Assembly (NCBI GenBank): GCA_022710975.1
Contig: JAKLGA010000005.1
Location: 1-64,000, forward strand
Source: Myxococcota bacterium
GTDB taxonomy: Bacteria; Myxococcota; B64-G9
Reading direction: 5' to 3'
Length of the DNA stretch: 64,000 nt
Shown here: positions 11,391 through 54,450 of the stretch, piece by piece
Layout of the letters: each line of letters starts with the position of its first letter
Numbering within the stretch: the stretch's first letter is position 1
Notes under the pieces: model-generated
What the model was told of the DNA's origin: nothing
Database searches by the model: none
The model's input: only the letters and a program-made list of their open reading frames with translations
Position numbers and translations under genes: made by a program

Positions 11391-12362
11391 ATGGTCAAGA
11401 AACCCCCGCCTGCCGAGCCTCCGGGTGGCGACCTCACCTACCGCGCGCTGGTCGAGCGCGTGGTGGCCGGGGACGAGGCCGCCTGGCGAGAGTTCGTGGA
11501 GCGCTTCAGCCGCCTGGTGTTCAGCCTGGTCTGGCGCTACGCCGACGGCGACCAGGACCAGTGCGCGGACCTGTACCTATACGTCATCGAGGGGCTGCGC
11601 CGCCCGAGCGAGGGCGGTGAGAGCTTCTATCGCCTGCGGCGCTACCTGGAGTCCATCGAGCGCTTCGGCGGCCAGGGCAAGCTGACCACCTGGCTCGGCC
11701 GGGTGACCCAGAACCTGGTCAGCGATCACTTCCGCGAGCTGGAGGGCCGGCGCACCATCCCGCGGCCCATCCAGCGCATGGATCTGCTCACCCAGCGCCT
11801 CTTCAAGCTGATGTACTGGGACAACCTGCCCGAGCGGGAGGTGCGCGCCGTGCTGGACACGGAGACCGGCGGCCTCGCGCCGGCCCGCTTCGACCGCATG
11901 CTGGCCGCCATCAACCGCGCGCTCAAGGACGTGAACCGCTGGTCGCTGTACAGCGAGGTCCTGCGCCGCGCCCCGGCCCTGCCGCTCCACCCGGTCGGCG
12001 AGAGCGAGGAGGGCGCAGTCTGCGTGCAGGTGGCCGATCCCCACCCCGCGGCCGATCCCGAGCGCGGGCTGGAGACCTCCCGGTCCAGCGAGCGAGCCCG
12101 CGCCCTGGGCAAGGCCCTGCGCGCGGCGCTGCGCGAGCTCGGCGATCAGGAGCGGCTCATGCTGCTCGGCCGCTTCAAGCACGGGCTGACCGCGCAGGAG
12201 ATCGCCCGGATGCTCGGTCGCAAGGACGAGAAACGCATCTACGTCGAGATCGACCGACTGCGGGACGGCCTGCGTCGCAGCCTGGAGGCGGCCGGATTCC
12301 GCTGGGACGAGGTGGCCGGCGGCGTGCACGTCCTGGACGGCATGCTCGACGAGGTCGCCTGA
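11391..12362 (+). CDS. Sigma-70-family factor with long inter-domain region (copy 1)
   Basis: A 323-residue protein. Residues ~18-115 look like sigma region 2 (AAWREFVERFSRLVFSLVWR; later KLTTWLGRVTQNLVSDHFRE and EGRR). Residues ~240-300 look like region 4, a helix-turn-helix (ELGDQERLMLLGRF; GLTAQEIARMLGR). Between them lie ~120 residues, far more than in ordinary ECF sigma factors. The protein at 53392-54450 is a paralog along its full length, including this middle part (both have YRLRR-LES, TTWL, EGRR--PR-I and ADP-P). The ATG has GGAG 5 nt upstream; the longer start at 11349 is less likely. The next gene has zinc-finger anti-sigma features, so the pair is a probable sigma/anti-sigma switch. 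Core binding is inferred. Confidence 0.75.
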   Translation: MVKKPPPAEPPGGDLTYRALVERVVAGDEAAWREFVERFSRLVFSLVWRYADGDQDQCADLYLYVIEGLRRPSEGGESFYRLRRYLESIERFGGQGKLTTWLGRVTQNLVSDHFRELEGRRTIPRPIQRMDLLTQRLFKLMYWDNLPEREVRAVLDTETGGLAPARFDRMLAAINRALKDVNRWSLYSEVLRRAPALPLHPVGESEEGAVCVQVADPHPAADPERGLETSRSSERARALGKALRAALRELGDQERLMLLGRFKHGLTAQEIARMLGRKDEKRIYVEIDRLRDGLRRSLEAAGFRWDEVAGGVHVLDGMLDEVA

Positions 12363-12381
12363 CGCGGCGCGGCACGAGCGG

Positions 12382-12395
12382 GTGATGGCGATCAC
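12382..12395. promoter_or_regulatory. CRP/FNR-like palindrome
   Basis: GTGATGGCGATCAC is a perfect palindrome of the GTGA-N6-TCAC form typical of CRP/FNR-family sites. It sits 20 bp after the sigma stop and 91 bp before the zinc-finger gene, next to a TTTTTT run. It may control internal transcription of the anti-sigma-like gene. Short motif, so chance occurrence is possible. Confidence 0.4.
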
Positions 12396-12485
12396 GTTTT
12401 TTCCCGGATTCCGCCAACGCGTCCGTCCCACGAAAGTGGAGGCGCTGGAAGAGTTGGCCGCAGCGGTGAACGCAGGAGTGCACGG

Positions 12486-13844
12486 ATGAGCGCTGGTTGC
12501 CCTGACCCCAGGATGCTGGAGTCCTTCGCCGCCGACAGCCTGGAGCCGGCGGAGCGCGACCGGGTGGCGGAGCACGCCCGCAGCTGCGAGGCCTGCCGGA
12601 CCGAGCTGGGTGGGCTCGCGGTGGTCCGGCTCGGGCTCACCCGGGACGCCGCGCCCACCGGGGAGCACCTCGGGGACGAGCGCCTGGCGCTGCTCGCCGA
12701 CGGCGCCCTGCCCGAGGCCGACCGGGAGCAGGCCCTGCGCCACCTGCTGGGCTGCCCGAGCTGCCTGGGCTCGCTGGTCGCCCTGCATCGGGCGCTGGCC
12801 GCGGTGGGCGAGGGCGAGCACGTCCCGCCTCCGGCCCTGCTCGCGCAGGCGGCGCACCCGGGCGCCCGCGCCACGCCCAGCCCGGAGGGCAGGCCGTGGC
12901 TGGCCTGGCTGCTCGGAGGCGGCCTGGGATGGCGCCTGGCCGCGGCGGGCGCGGCCGCCGCCGCGATCCTGGCGCTGGTGGTGCTGACCGCCGGCCCCGG
13001 GCCGTCCGCCCGGTTGCCCGGACCGGGAACGCCGGCCCTGATCGACCCCCCGGCGATGCTCCTGGGCGAGCGGGCGCCGGCGCCCGAGCCTGGCCAGGTC
13101 CCGCCCCGGGACATCCCGCCGGCGCCGGAGCCGGAGCCAGAGCCGGTGGCCCCGGGTCCTCCGAAGGCCGTGCTGGCCTGGGGAGTCCTGGCCAAGGAGG
13201 CCGCTCCGCCCGCCTGGGTGCCCCAGGCCGGCGCGACGGCCCTGACAGCAGAGCCCGGGCGCGCCTCGTTTGGCGCCACCTTCCAGCTCGGCCGCGCCGC
13301 GGCTTACCTCGAGATCCTGGAACGCTCGAGCGGGTTGATCGCCGCCCAGGCCGGGCAGCTCGGCCAGGTGCTCGGTGCCCTGGAGCCCGCGCTCCGCGCC
13401 GCGCTCGGCGGCGAGCCCGTCCAGGCGCGGCTCACGACCTTCGCCCGCGATCTGAGCGCCCGGCTGGCCGGGGCCGAGGCCGATCCGCAGACCCTGCAGG
13501 TCCGTGTCCAGGTGTTCCGCACCGCCCTCGACGAGGCCCTGGCCGCGCCGCCCGCGCGGGCCCAGGCCGCGGAGCTCGGCCGGCTGGTGCAGGAGCTCAC
13601 CGCCTCCTCCGTGGCCGAGGCGCGGCAGGTGCCTGCCCTCCTGGCCCCGGGGCCGGAGCCCCTGGCGCGCCTGCGCGCCCTGCTCACCTCCGCCGTCGGG
13701 CTGGGGACCGACGAACGCAAGGCCGCCCTGGAGGCCCTGGACGCTCTCGCCGCGGCCCGCGCGGACATCCCCACGCCCGAGCGGGCCGGGCGCATCCGAG
13801 CCGCCCTGGAGCGCCTGGACGGCAGCTTGCGCCGCGCCCGGTAG
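12486..13844 (+). CDS. Double zinc-finger (zf-HC2) membrane protein, probable anti-sigma factor
   Basis: A 452-residue protein. The cytoplasmic head has two HX3CX2C modules: H30/C34/C37 (EHARSCEAC) and H86/C90/C93 (RHLLGCPSC), the zinc-binding anti-sigma (ZAS) signature. A transmembrane segment follows at ~150-168. Then come a Pro-rich spacer (170-220) and an Ala-rich helical domain to the C-terminus, expected outside the membrane. The second module resembles the single module of the 97-residue protein at 53102. Position right after a sigma gene supports an anti-sigma role, with the outer domain as sensor; its ligand is unknown. ATG is preceded by GCAGGAG. A 123-bp gap from the sigma stop holds a CRP-like palindrome. 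Confidence 0.75.
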   Translation: MSAGCPDPRMLESFAADSLEPAERDRVAEHARSCEACRTELGGLAVVRLGLTRDAAPTGEHLGDERLALLADGALPEADREQALRHLLGCPSCLGSLVALHRALAAVGEGEHVPPPALLAQAAHPGARATPSPEGRPWLAWLLGGGLGWRLAAAGAAAAAILALVVLTAGPGPSARLPGPGTPALIDPPAMLLGERAPAPEPGQVPPRDIPPAPEPEPEPVAPGPPKAVLAWGVLAKEAAPPAWVPQAGATALTAEPGRASFGATFQLGRAAAYLEILERSSGLIAAQAGQLGQVLGALEPALRAALGGEPVQARLTTFARDLSARLAGAEADPQTLQVRVQVFRTALDEALAAPPARAQAAELGRLVQELTASSVAEARQVPALLAPGPEPLARLRALLTSAVGLGTDERKAALEALDALAAARADIPTPERAGRIRAALERLDGSLRRAR

Positions 13845-50165: not shown

Positions 50166-51236
50166 ATGGGCCCCCGGCCGAGCCTGCCCGCCTGGGCGGG
50201 CGTACTCCTGGGCGCCCTGCTCGGCGGTGGACTGGGGTTCTACCTCGGCCGCGCGACCGCCCCGCAAGAGCCCGCCCCCCCGGCGGCCCCGGGACCCGCA
50301 CCCACCGCCCCCCCCGAGGCGGTCCAGGGGGCGGCGCAACCCGCCGGAGACGTGCCCGTGGCGCTGGCGCCCGGGCAGCCGTCCGCGCTGCCGCCCGCGG
50401 CTGTCCCGGCAGCTCCTGCGGCGGGGGCGCTGCGCAAGCTGGCGGTCACGCTCGACAGCTCCCTGTACCAGAGCCTGGCAGGTGAGCTCCCCGGGCGCGA
50501 GGCCGACATCCTGTCCGCGCACATCGGGCGACAGCTCATCTGGTGGCTGGACGCACGCCGGGACGTCCTGCGGGGCGACCGCCTGGAGGTGGCCTGGGAG
50601 CCGGTGCCCGGCCCGGGCGAGATCCGCGTCCGGGCGCTGCGCTTCCAGAGCCTGAAGCAGGGCAAGACCTACGAGGCCTACTTCTTCCAGGCCCCGGGCG
50701 CGGCCTACGGGCGCTACTACGACCCCGACGGGGTCGAGGTCGAGCAGCGCCTGGTCCCGAGCCCGCTCGAGGAATACGAACAGATCACCGAGGTGATGAA
50801 CCTGGGCGGCCGACGGCATCGCGGGGTGGACTTCAAGTGCGACGCGGGCAGCGCGGTCCGGGCGCCCGAGGACGTGGTCGTCAGCCGGGTGAACTGGCGC
50901 ACGCGCGGCAATGGCAACTGCCTGGAGCTGGTCTACCCGCGCACGGGCGTGACCGCCACCTTCCTGCACCTGGACAAGGTCCTGCCCGAGGCGCGCCCGG
51001 GCAAGCGCCTGCCGGCCGGCAGCCAGGTGGCCCTGTCGGGCAACACCGGCCGCTCGACCGCACCCCACCTGCACTACGAGCTGCACGACCGGTCCGGCCG
51101 GCTGCTGAACCCCTTCGATTACCACCAGACCACGCACAAGAAGCTGGAGGGGGCCGAGTTGGAGGCCTTCCGCGGGGTCCGGGCCGAGCTCGAGCGGAGT
51201 CTTCAGGGCCTGGCCGCAGGCGGCGCCAGCCGGTGA
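50166..51236 (+). CDS. M23 (LytM-type) peptidase, membrane anchored
   Basis: A 356-residue protein. One N-terminal transmembrane segment (WAGVLLGALLGGGLGFYLG), then a Pro/Ala-rich spacer and a middle region (KTYEAYFFQAPGAAYGRYYD) typical of LytM/NlpD-like peptidases. The M23 domain has zinc ligands in RRHRGVDFKCDAG and HLHYELHDRSGR. It should cut peptide cross-links of peptidoglycan. ATG 50166 follows GGAGGAGGG, favoured over TTG 50130. It starts 57 bp after the GGDEF gene. Its last 34 bp overlap the convergent TPR gene. Confidence 0.9.
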   Translation: MGPRPSLPAWAGVLLGALLGGGLGFYLGRATAPQEPAPPAAPGPAPTAPPEAVQGAAQPAGDVPVALAPGQPSALPPAAVPAAPAAGALRKLAVTLDSSLYQSLAGELPGREADILSAHIGRQLIWWLDARRDVLRGDRLEVAWEPVPGPGEIRVRALRFQSLKQGKTYEAYFFQAPGAAYGRYYDPDGVEVEQRLVPSPLEEYEQITEVMNLGGRRHRGVDFKCDAGSAVRAPEDVVVSRVNWRTRGNGNCLELVYPRTGVTATFLHLDKVLPEARPGKRLPAGSQVALSGNTGRSTAPHLHYELHDRSGRLLNPFDYHQTTHKKLEGAELEAFRGVRAELERSLQGLAAGGASR

Positions 51237-53047
51237 ATGCGCTCCACGGCCCGCCGGGCCCAGGCCGCGGACGGGTGGCAGCGAACGAAGCGCTCGTACG
51301 CCACGATGGCCTCGCTCCAGTCGCCGCGCCGCTCGTGGATCATGGCCCGCATCAGCCACACCCCGGCCAGCTCCTCGGAGGCTGACGGCAGCGCGCGGAG
51401 CTGCCGGCCCAGGGGCAGCACGCCCTGGCCATCGACGTCTTGATCCAGGGCGGTCTCCAGGTGCTCGGACATGCGCTCCAGATCGCCCGCCAGGCCAAGG
51501 CAGAAGGCGGTCTGGAAGCGGGCCGGGAGCTGATCCGGGAAGCGGTCCACCATCCCCCGTCCAGTGGCCGAGCAGCCGGCGAAGTCCCCGAGCAGGAGCT
51601 GCTGCTCCAGCAGGGCGCGGTGGTTGTCCACGTCGTCCGGCTCGAGCGCGAGGGCACGCTGGAAGGCCACCAGCGCGCCGGGCCCCTCGTCCGCGCGCCG
51701 CAGGGCGAAGCCCAGGGCGTAATGGATCGCGGCCGTGCCCGGGCTCAGGCGCTCGGCCTCCCGCAGGGCGATGACCGCCTCCTCGATCTCGCCCTGCTGG
51801 AGCAGCGCCTCACCCAGGGCGAAGTGCACGTCCGCCTGCCGTCGGCCGAGGCTCAGCGCCCGCCGCAGGTGGGGGACGGCAGCGGCCGGGCGCTCGATCA
51901 TCAGCAGCCGGAGCCCCTGCGCGAAGTGGGCGTCCGCGCTGTCCGGCTGCCCGGTGAAGGCCGCCTCCAGCACCTCCTCGGCCCGCTCGCTGCGGCCGGT
52001 CATCAGCAAGCTGGTGACCAGGAAGTGGTGGATGCGGACGTCGCCTCCGGCCACGGGCAGCGCGCGCTCCAGGCGACGCACCGACTCCTCGTGCATGCCC
52101 ACCTGCTGGCAGGCCAGGCCCAGGGCCAGATCGAGGGCCGGCCCCGGCCCGCCCACGTCCTCGGCGCGGTGGAGGGCCACCGCGGCCAGCACGGCATCGC
52201 CAGCCCGCAGGCGCGACACGCCCTCGTACAGGTAGCCGTCCGCCAGGCTGGGCAGTCGCTGGGTCGCGGCCCGGAAGGCCTCGGCGGCCGGTCCTGCCTC
52301 GTCCAGGTCGAGCAGCGCCAGCCCGCGGTTGAAGTGCGCGGCCGCCAGCTCCGGGTCCACCCGCGAGGCCCGGGAGTACTCCTCCACGGCCTCCCGCATC
52401 CGCCCGGCGTTGCGCAGAGCGTTGCCCAGGTTGTTGGCGGCCACCGCGGCGTAGCCCGGCTCGCGGGTCAGTGCGCCGAACTCCTCCTGGGCCTGGGACA
52501 CCACGCCCAGCTCGGCCAGCACGTTGCCGAGCCCGTTGTGCACGCCGGGGGCGTCGGGGAAGTCCGCTGCGGCCCACGAATACACCCGCATGGCGCCGAG
52601 CAGGTCCCCGTCCAGGAACAAGCTGTCGGCCAGACCCAGCCGCAAGTCGGCGTTGTCCTCGCCCTCCCTGGCCTGCCGCCTGAGCTCCTCGGCCACTCGC
52701 CCGAACTCCCCGCGTTGCAGGCGCTCGCACAGGGGCTCCGAGCCCGTGCAGCCCGCAGGCGCCAGCACGGTCACCGAGGCCACCCGCGCCCCGTGTGCGC
52801 GGCGAACCTCCAGCCAGCCGTCACCGGAGCGCACCACCTCGGCCGGGGGCAGCTTGGCCAGGGCAGCGCTCGGTCCGGGCAGGCTGAGCAGGCCCTCGCT
52901 CTCGTCGGCCTGGACCCCCATGTCCGAGAACAGGCTGCCGGCGGCTGCCAGCAGCACCAGGCAGACGCCCAGGCGCCACCACCCCGAGCCCCGGGCCCTG
53001 GATTGGCGGCCCGACTTCGTGCGATCGGCGCGCTCCATGGGCTCCAT
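51203..53047 (-). CDS. TPR membrane protein, sigma module 2
   Basis: A 614-residue protein. A basic N-terminus and a transmembrane or signal-anchor segment (24-41) precede ~60 residues of non-repeat sequence. A long array of TPRs follows (HNGLGNVLAELGVVSQAQEE; HFNRGLALLDLDEAGPAAEA), about twelve to fourteen, probably outside the cytoplasm. It lies 54 bp after the zinc-finger gene, so it belongs to the sigma/zinc-finger transcript and may be the sensor that copy 1 carries as a fused domain. ATG 53047 has GAGGAGTC upstream. Tail overlaps the M23 gene. Confidence 0.82.
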   Translation of the reverse strand: MEPMERADRTKSGRQSRARGSGWWRLGVCLVLLAAAGSLFSDMGVQADESEGLLSLPGPSAALAKLPPAEVVRSGDGWLEVRRAHGARVASVTVLAPAGCTGSEPLCERLQRGEFGRVAEELRRQAREGEDNADLRLGLADSLFLDGDLLGAMRVYSWAAADFPDAPGVHNGLGNVLAELGVVSQAQEEFGALTREPGYAAVAANNLGNALRNAGRMREAVEEYSRASRVDPELAAAHFNRGLALLDLDEAGPAAEAFRAATQRLPSLADGYLYEGVSRLRAGDAVLAAVALHRAEDVGGPGPALDLALGLACQQVGMHEESVRRLERALPVAGGDVRIHHFLVTSLLMTGRSERAEEVLEAAFTGQPDSADAHFAQGLRLLMIERPAAAVPHLRRALSLGRRQADVHFALGEALLQQGEIEEAVIALREAERLSPGTAAIHYALGFALRRADEGPGALVAFQRALALEPDDVDNHRALLEQQLLLGDFAGCSATGRGMVDRFPDQLPARFQTAFCLGLAGDLERMSEHLETALDQDVDGQGVLPLGRQLRALPSASEELAGVWLMRAMIHERRGDWSEAIVAYERFVRCHPSAAWARRAVERIHRLAPPAARP

Positions 53048-53101: not shown

Positions 53102-53395
53102 CTACTTGCGCTCGTTCGGGGCGGCGCGGGTATCGGCAGGCACCGGGCGGGCAGGCACCTCGGCGGCGACGGGGCGCACGCCCGGGTGGCCTAGCGCGAC
53201 CGCCTGGGCCAGCAGCTCCGCCGAGGGACGCAGAGCGTCTTGACGCGCCGCATCCTGCAACGCCTCGGAGAGCCGCTGGATCTCGCCCGCGCAACGCGGG
53301 CACCCGGCCAGGTGGGATCGCCCCTGGGCGGCCCGCGCCTGCGGCAGGCGGCCATCGAACAGGGCAGCCAGCTCCTCGGCTGACAAGCAGGTCAC
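53102..53395 (-). CDS. Small zinc-finger (zf-HC2) anti-sigma-like protein
   Basis: A 97-residue cytosolic protein with one HX3CX2C module (H28, C32, C35 in SHLAGCPRC). The stretch EELAALFDGRLPQA aligns with ERLALLADGALPEA in the second module of the protein at 12486. No membrane segment. The GTG start overlaps the sigma stop (GTGA), tying its synthesis to the sigma factor at a fixed ratio. A cytosolic anti-sigma is the best guess; a zinc-dependent redox switch is possible. Confidence 0.78.
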   Translation of the reverse strand: MTCLSAEELAALFDGRLPQARAAQGRSHLAGCPRCAGEIQRLSEALQDAARQDALRPSAELLAQAVALGHPGVRPVAAEVPARPVPADTRAAPNERK

Positions 53396-54450
53396 GCGTC
53401 ACCTCCCTCCGATTCGCTCCCCGGGCCGCCCGAGCCATCGCGCCCGACGTTCCCATCCAGACGGCCGCCGCCGCCGGATCTGGAACCCGGGCCCTCGCGC
53501 GGCTCGGCGCAGGCCCCGAGATCGGCCAGCGCCGCCTCCAGCGCCTCCGCGCCGAGCCCACGGCGGCCTAGCCAGGTGCGCAGCCTGCGCCGGGCCCTGG
53601 CCATCTCGTCATACACCCGCTGCCGGGTTCGGAATCCCATCACCCGCCGCACCTGGTCACCGTCCAGGCCGCGGAACACGAGCAGTTGCACCACCTGGCG
53701 GGTGGCGGCCGGCAGGCTGGCGAGCCCCTCGGCCAGCAACGACCGCAGGCGCTCGGCCTCGGCGTGCTCCTCCGCCCGCAACAGCCTGGCATCCGGGCGA
53801 TGGACCGGATCGGGATCGGCGAGTTGCAGGTGGGGGCCGTCCGGCCCGCCCAGCGGCGCGTCCAGGGACACGGCCGGCAACCGGCGCAGGAGGTCCTGGT
53901 AGATCGTCCACAGGTCGCGGGCACGGAGCGCGCCGTAGACCGCGGCCACGGCCGCCTCGAACTCCGCCGGGCCGAGCCCGGGCCGGTGCGTGTGTAGCTG
54001 GCCCCAGGCCTCGGCCTCCGTGAGCCCCTGCCAGAACAGGGCGCGGAAGACCTCCTGCCCGAGCGGAGCCAGGCCCTCGATCTCGCGGGGCAGGTGGCGG
54101 CGGCCCTCGCGCTCGCGGAACCAGTCGCGGAACAGGTTCTTGGCGACCAGGGCCAGCCAGGTGGTGAACCTGCTGCGGGTCCCGAGCTGCTCGCGGGATT
54201 CGAGGAAACGGCGCAGGCGATAGCAGCCTCGGCCCTCGGCGTCCGGCCGCCGGAGCCCCTCGAGCGCGACCAGGCACAGCTCCTCGGCCAGATCCTGATC
54301 ACCCCGCGCGTAGCGCCAGGCGAGCGCGTGCAGGAAGCCCAGGTGGCTCTCGACGAAGCGCTGCCAGGCCGCTGGGTTCCCGGCCACCACCTGGCGCACG
54401 AGCGCCAGCGGCTCCGGCCGGTGCGGGGAGTGGGGTCGCGCGCGGGGCAC
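53392..54450 (-). CDS. Sigma-70-family factor with long inter-domain region (copy 2)
   Basis: A 352-residue paralog of the protein at 11391. Region 2-like: AAWQRFVESHLGFLHALAWR, then FTTWLALVAKNLFRDWFRE and EGRR. Region 4-like: LPAATRQVVQLLVFRGLDGDQ with VMGFRTRQRVYDEM. The ~120-residue middle and the two ends of the middle are conserved between copies, which argues that this insert is functional. An extra Gly/Ser-rich tail of ~50 residues is specific to this copy. The start is GTG 54450, no strong SD, 24 bp after the cyclophilin gene. Overlaps the zinc-finger gene by 4 bp. Confidence 0.75.
   Translation of the reverse strand: MPRARPHSPHRPEPLALVRQVVAGNPAAWQRFVESHLGFLHALAWRYARGDQDLAEELCLVALEGLRRPDAEGRGCYRLRRFLESREQLGTRSRFTTWLALVAKNLFRDWFREREGRRHLPREIEGLAPLGQEVFRALFWQGLTEAEAWGQLHTHRPGLGPAEFEAAVAAVYGALRARDLWTIYQDLLRRLPAVSLDAPLGGPDGPHLQLADPDPVHRPDARLLRAEEHAEAERLRSLLAEGLASLPAATRQVVQLLVFRGLDGDQVRRVMGFRTRQRVYDEMARARRRLRTWLGRRGLGAEALEAALADLGACAEPREGPGSRSGGGGRLDGNVGRDGSGGPGSESEGGDA

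Follow-up and report, generated by a model that had tools for sequence, protein, structure and literature searches.

A putative ECF-like sigma factor with a region-4-like domain between regions 2 and 4, and its candidate double-zinc membrane anti-sigma partner, in a Myxococcota bacterium

Two complete open reading frames lie next to each other on the forward strand of the window (the whole stretch of 64,000 nucleotides that was analysed), at 11391-12362 (323 aa) and 12486-13844 (452 aa). The product of the first, sigma factor A (sigma A), matched the TIGR02937 sigma70-ECF model (1.4e-15) and, above the cut-off, Pfam Sigma70_r2. Its region 2 (residues 15-121; 11433..11753, +) is followed by an insert (residues 119-184; 11745..11942, +), by a linker in which the alignment revealed the conserved pattern SLYSEVLRRAPALPLHP...VQVADP...PE (residues 185-235; 11943..12095, +), and by region 4 (residues 236-304; 12096..12302, +), where the Pfam r4_2 match (6e-5) fell just below the cut-off. 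The linker, whose pLDDT was low, resembles a finger and may play that role. The whole-chain model, with a pTM of 0.39, does not define the arrangement of the domains. The preliminary description had named the lack of any sigma-fold match in structure prediction as a refutation, and both terminal domains of the predicted structure gave such a match: residues 15-121 fitted region 2 of sigmaE in 4lup (Z 10.1, rmsd 2.7, 89 aligned), and residues 234-304 fitted 2h27_D, region 4 of sigmaE with -35 DNA (Z 8.5, rmsd 1.7, 69 aligned). The statement that regions 2 and 4 stand far apart was also confirmed. When the same boundaries were applied, the spacing was 115 residues in sigma A and 114 in its paralogue, sigma B, versus 24-50 residues in 22 canonical ECFs from the source genome and its relatives.

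The second open reading frame (12486..13844, +) encodes anti-sigma candidate A, which matched Pfam zf-HC2 (1.1e-7) in two stretches. The first HX3CX2C module (HARSCEAC; 12498..12605, +) was recognized in the translation and the alignment, and the second (HLLGCPSC; 12678..12764, +) contains the best Pfam stretch, 65-93. A transmembrane helix follows (residues 151-169; 12936..12992, +), with a mean hydropathy of 2.37 and the same position in relatives. The remaining C-terminal part (12993..13841, +), for which Pfam gave no match, is a presumed periplasmic sensor, as judged from the topology, and is 20-29% identical to its relatives. The motif xLGR occurs twice in this part (12993-13841) and similar motifs are found in relatives, hinting at an internal repeat. 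In the proposed survey of the gene neighbourhood, the gene after sigma A encoded a double-HX3CX2C protein (about 430-500 residues) in 8/8 genomes; those examined have one transmembrane helix and then a long C-terminal part. We are highly confident that sigma A and the product of 12486-13844 form a sigma/anti-sigma pair, although the sigma activity and its inhibition are themselves inferred.

Sigma factor B (352 aa; 53392..54450, -) matched TIGR02937 at 2.5e-15 and is 40% identical to sigma A over 278 residues, the insert lying within the aligned span. The earlier claim that the intervening segment is conserved in a full-length paralogue at 53392 is therefore correct, and the segment is kept in nine genomes. 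Alignment to sigma A places the region-4-like insert of sigma B at 53908..54105 (-) and its region 4 at 53551..53757 (-). The next gene encodes anti-sigma candidate B (97 aa; 53102..53395, -), a soluble protein with no transmembrane helix and a single zinc finger (zf-HC2 2e-4, just under the cut-off) that is kept in relatives. The third gene of the cluster (51203..53047, -) encodes a TPR protein with many TPR matches and an N-terminal transmembrane or signal segment. The order of sigma B, a soluble one-module protein of about 95-103 residues and a TPR protein was also found in relatives. The partner described earlier, with two zinc modules, a transmembrane helix and a long C-terminal part, thus belongs to sigma A, and the description does not extend to sigma B, which is accompanied by the 97-aa soluble single-zinc-finger protein and the TPR protein.

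Full-length homologues, generally one of each paralogue, were present in 9/9 genomes of the same family, and elsewhere in the phylum the search of 146 relatives returned only partial, ECF-level matches. A phylum-wide profile search found homologues in 9 of 195 genomes. The named homologue records came from metagenome-assembled genomes of Deltaproteobacteria and Myxococcales and from one Gemmatimonadetes genome. Starting from the Gemmatimonadetes protein, homologues were reached in 32 of 249 Gemmatimonadota genomes. They fall into three sets, of which G1 and G2 carry the insert and N does not. A G2 query matched 16 of the 249 genomes, and the second Gemmatimonadota insert subfamily gave no match at 1e-8 in 193 Myxococcota genomes. 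In the plasmid collection sigma A had no match, and the Gemmatimonadota type had one, on a plasmid of Gemmatirosa kalamazoonensis. The cultured strain Gemmatirosa kalamazoonensis KBS708 carries a homologue at L154:5001-5750. An alignment of 16 proteins contained 29 invariant columns, including G119, R120, P124, Y187 and P195 in the insert and linker. With identical boundaries, the spacing was 112-116 residues in the sigma A group (A), 108-114 in the sigma B group (B), 86-92 in G1, 87-93 in G2 and 41-52 in N. In a tree of regions 2 and 4, whose outgroup consisted of Myxococcota ECFs only and which leaves the depth of the clade uncertain, A, B, G1, G2 and N were joined with a support of 97/100, apart from the sampled canonical ECFs. 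In the same tree A was grouped with B (95/100) and N was placed beside G2 (82/95). Since N lies beside G2 inside the clade, either the common ancestor already had the insert and N lost it, or the insert arose more than once.

Among the Gemmatimonadota, the partners of G1 proteins had two zinc modules in 4 cases and one in 8, and those of the insertless N proteins a single module in 10/10. For the five G2 genes, the search covered 1.5 kb of downstream sequence and detected no zinc module. All the double-module partners found (12/12) accompany insert-bearing sigma factors, and none of the 10 partners of insertless relatives is double (0/10); since the sequences are related, these counts do not amount to a statistical test. 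In one Gemmatimonadetes relative a large protein, TPR-CHAT-like by eye, follows the sigma and anti-sigma genes (L068:2193-5414). At three loci of insertless members of the clade (L109, L110 and L113), a second, canonical-looking ECF sigma gene is adjacent on the opposite strand.

The preliminary description did not contain the observation that the insert itself is a region-4-like domain. Three methods bear on its nature. Pfam Sigma70_r4_2 was matched by 15 of 34 family inserts scanned singly (best 2.4e-4), and Sigma70_r3 by none of the 34. In hhalign comparisons, the insert profile aligned with the family's own sigma4 at E 2.6e-5 (prob 75) and with canonical ECF sigma4 at E 9.7e-4, a value that all 60 column shuffles failed to reach (lowest 0.0095). 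The match spans the first half of region 4, comprising region 4.1 and helix 1 of the helix-turn-helix, and the best hit among sequences of solved structures was region 4 of BldN (E 0.004). Modelled alone, the insert had a pLDDT of 78 (about 90 in its core) and a pTM of 0.64, and the first five rows of the structural comparison were sigma4 domains (Z 5.7-6.6), the fit to 8jzt reaching Z 6.6 and rmsd 2.3 over 57 residues. The structural matches are modest, with Z values below 7 and Foldseek E values above 1, and the helix-turn-helix is a common fold; therefore, the case for region 4 rests on the agreement of Pfam, profile comparison and fold prediction. On this agreement, the insert is very likely a degenerate helix-turn-helix domain derived from region 4.

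The same data bear on the possibility that the insert represents sigma region 3 in diverged form and that these proteins are small group 3 factors with a sigma2-sigma3-sigma4 plan. The insert sits where region 3 would be, a motif like the region 3.2 finger (xLxxP ... ADP ... P) comes after it, and the best Foldseek match of the whole sigma A chain was a group 3 factor with region 3, S. aureus sigB (8x6g). However, the insert modelled alone lands on region 4 of whole sigma chains, in the case of 8x6g at 193-256. Moreover, besides the 0/34 result with Pfam Sigma70_r3, the alignment with sigma3 from 11 relatives gave E 0.16, inside the shuffle range, against 9.7e-4 for region 4. A region 3 identity is thus unsupported by Pfam, hhalign and fold comparison, and we regard it as improbable. 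Even less probable is that the proteins are ordinary ECF factors with an unusually long but structurally neutral linker. The presence of regions 2 and 4, the anti-sigma neighbour and the TIGR02937 match are all typical of such factors, and the insertless relatives with linkers of 41-52 residues branch inside the clade. However, both the sequence and the length of the insert have been conserved between paralogues and between phyla, and the prediction gives it a folded core with the pLDDT of about 90 stated above.

The segment of the insert corresponding to the recognition helix had a mean net charge between -1.6 and +0.2, depending on the group, while that of the true region 4 ranged from +1.2 to +5.2. 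The inserts of all four subfamilies have lost the net positive charge that the true region 4 keeps, a contrast that favours protein binding as the role of the insert. From this net charge, a crude proxy for DNA binding, it appears that the insert no longer reads DNA. It is somewhat more plausible as a protein-docking than as a DNA-reading domain.

In the DNA between sigma A and anti-sigma A, at 12382-12427 (+), a palindrome resembling CRP/FNR sites, GTGATGGCGATCAC, is followed by a T-run and TCCGTC, which gives a promoter-like element of the form GTGA-N6-TCAC, T-rich run, TCCGTC. The site upstream of TCCGTC is one which we take to be CRP/FNR-like; CGTC is typical of ECF -10 elements and is contained in TCCGTC. 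The layout is conserved in 5/8 genomes, with the last half-site imperfect in one of them, and TCCGT is present in this gap in 8/8. The pattern TCACNTTTTT-N14-24-CCGTC has a single match in the 7.1-Mb genome, at this gap, and one match each, at the same gap, in the relatives G006 and G007. An additional match in the relative G005, close to a similar layout, falls within another gene region and appears to be a chance match. Neither an RNA fold (fold z 0.47) nor a terminator or sigma-70 promoter pattern was found in the gap. The element could be the promoter of the anti-sigma gene and might be read by sigma A itself. Such an unusual conserved element in front of the anti-sigma A gene, together with the descent of the insert from a DNA-binding domain, could point to the insert as a further domain that reads DNA, in contact with the spacer or with an additional element of a three-part promoter. 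This is unlikely in our estimation, as the net positive charge is gone from the recognition-helix segment of the insert in all four subfamilies, and the gap element looks like a palindrome of CRP/FNR type, with no such element seen in front of sigma B.

ECF sigma factors are defined as having only regions 2 and 4, joined by a linker of under 50 residues (PMC8103513). Sigma A has both regions and an adjacent gene for an anti-sigma candidate, as ECFs do, but the spacing of 108-116 residues in 16 Myxococcota members and the extra domain depart from the short linker and the two-domain plan. Therefore, by the published definition, the insert-bearing proteins are described here as ECF-like rather than ECF. 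The idea of a distinct sigma class, advanced in the preliminary description, gains support from this departure from the under-50 linker (PMC8103513) and from the separation of the clade from the sampled ECFs (97/100).

ECF (group IV) factors with zinc class I partners, such as SigR-RsrA, SigL-RslA and SigW-RsiW, share with the present pair regions 2 and 4, an adjacent zf-HC2 membrane anti-sigma candidate and the presumed signal-dependent release. Anti-sigma candidate A corresponds to ZAS or class I proteins in its HX3CX2C zf-HC2-type modules and in its place directly downstream of the sigma gene. Unlike in those pairs, a region-4-like domain lies between regions 2 and 4, with the spacing of 108-116 versus under 50 residues, and partner A has two zinc modules. 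Group 3 factors (SigB, FliA, RpoH) also have three helical domains in a row and a finger-like motif before region 4, but here the middle domain matches region 4, and no region 3 domain, which characterizes group 3, was detected between regions 2 and 4 of the insert-bearing proteins. SigI of Bacilli and Clostridia is likewise a sigma-70-family factor with a non-canonical domain plan; there another domain replaces region 4 (PMC10575876), whereas the present proteins retain region 4 and have an additional, degenerate one. In ECF41, ECF42 and ECF238 an extra domain is proposed to regulate the sigma factor as well, but their extensions are N- or C-terminal (PMC8999054) rather than placed between regions 2 and 4. 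The literature searched contained no account of a tandem or duplicated region 4 or of double-zinc anti-sigma factors, which is not proof of absence. As far as anatomy shows, the working mode resembles that of ECF/ZAS pairs, by a conventional sigma/anti-sigma mechanism; what appears to be new is the tandem region-4 architecture, and the branch appears to be a small, undescribed one of a very well-studied family.

Sequence and predicted structure show the domain plan and its conservation, as well as the conserved association of sigma A with a membrane protein of zf-HC2 type. The explanation that we consider reasonably probable as a whole is that of an alternative sigma factor with an extra, degenerate region-4-like domain, held at the membrane by the product of the next gene. 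Sigma A would be an alternative member of the sigma-70 family, in which region 2 recognizes and melts the -10 element and the degenerate domain stands between region 2 and the finger-like linker, which leads to the true region 4 for -35 recognition. The product of 12486-13844 would keep sigma A inactive at the inner membrane by means of its two cytoplasmic zinc-finger modules, until a signal acting on the periplasmic part presumably frees it. The insert would probably offer the second anti-sigma module, or RNA polymerase, a surface to dock on. In the class I anti-sigma domain, helices 1-3 bind sigma4 and helix 4 binds sigma2 (PMC7406223). A natural, though hypothetical, arrangement would have the second module face the second region-4-like domain. 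That each region-4-like domain has specifically one zinc module is nonetheless a tentative proposal which we rate as rather doubtful; sigma B and most Gemmatimonadota relatives combine the insert with one zinc module, and thus a double-module partner is not obligatory. Equally speculative, and in our judgement more probably wrong than right, is a double-lock sequestration throughout the clade, with tandem region-4-like domains and an ancestral tandem-zinc anti-sigma factor, one module per domain. The counts of 12/12 and 0/10 given above speak for it so far.

If the proposed explanation is right, these proteins illustrate a route by which a sigma factor duplicates its -35-reading domain and turns one copy to another use, and they are a natural case in which to test the number of contacts required for an anti-sigma factor to retain its sigma factor. 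An ECF classification built on the two-domain, short-linker definition would leave them uncatalogued.

Several observations concern the surroundings of the sigma B cluster. No RNA family reached the gathering threshold in the window or at the sigma B loci. In four genera (L053 near 4963, +; L054 near 5180, -; L056 near 5002, +; L029 near 2601, -), a conserved element around TGTGCG...GTGGTGGCAGGTGCGT precedes sigma B by some 70-150 bases; it had no Rfam match and was not found in the source genome. One relative has a REP-associated-transposase-like gene with HHVMHRG and MPNHYHLL motifs (L064:9271-10260) directly behind its sigma B cluster, and this gene could be related to the conserved element. 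In several genera the neighbours of the cluster are two convergent genes, one for a putative GAF/GGDEF-like protein and the other for a transmembrane protein (L065:6255-8588, -; L066:10178-11386, -; L067:9151-11510, -).
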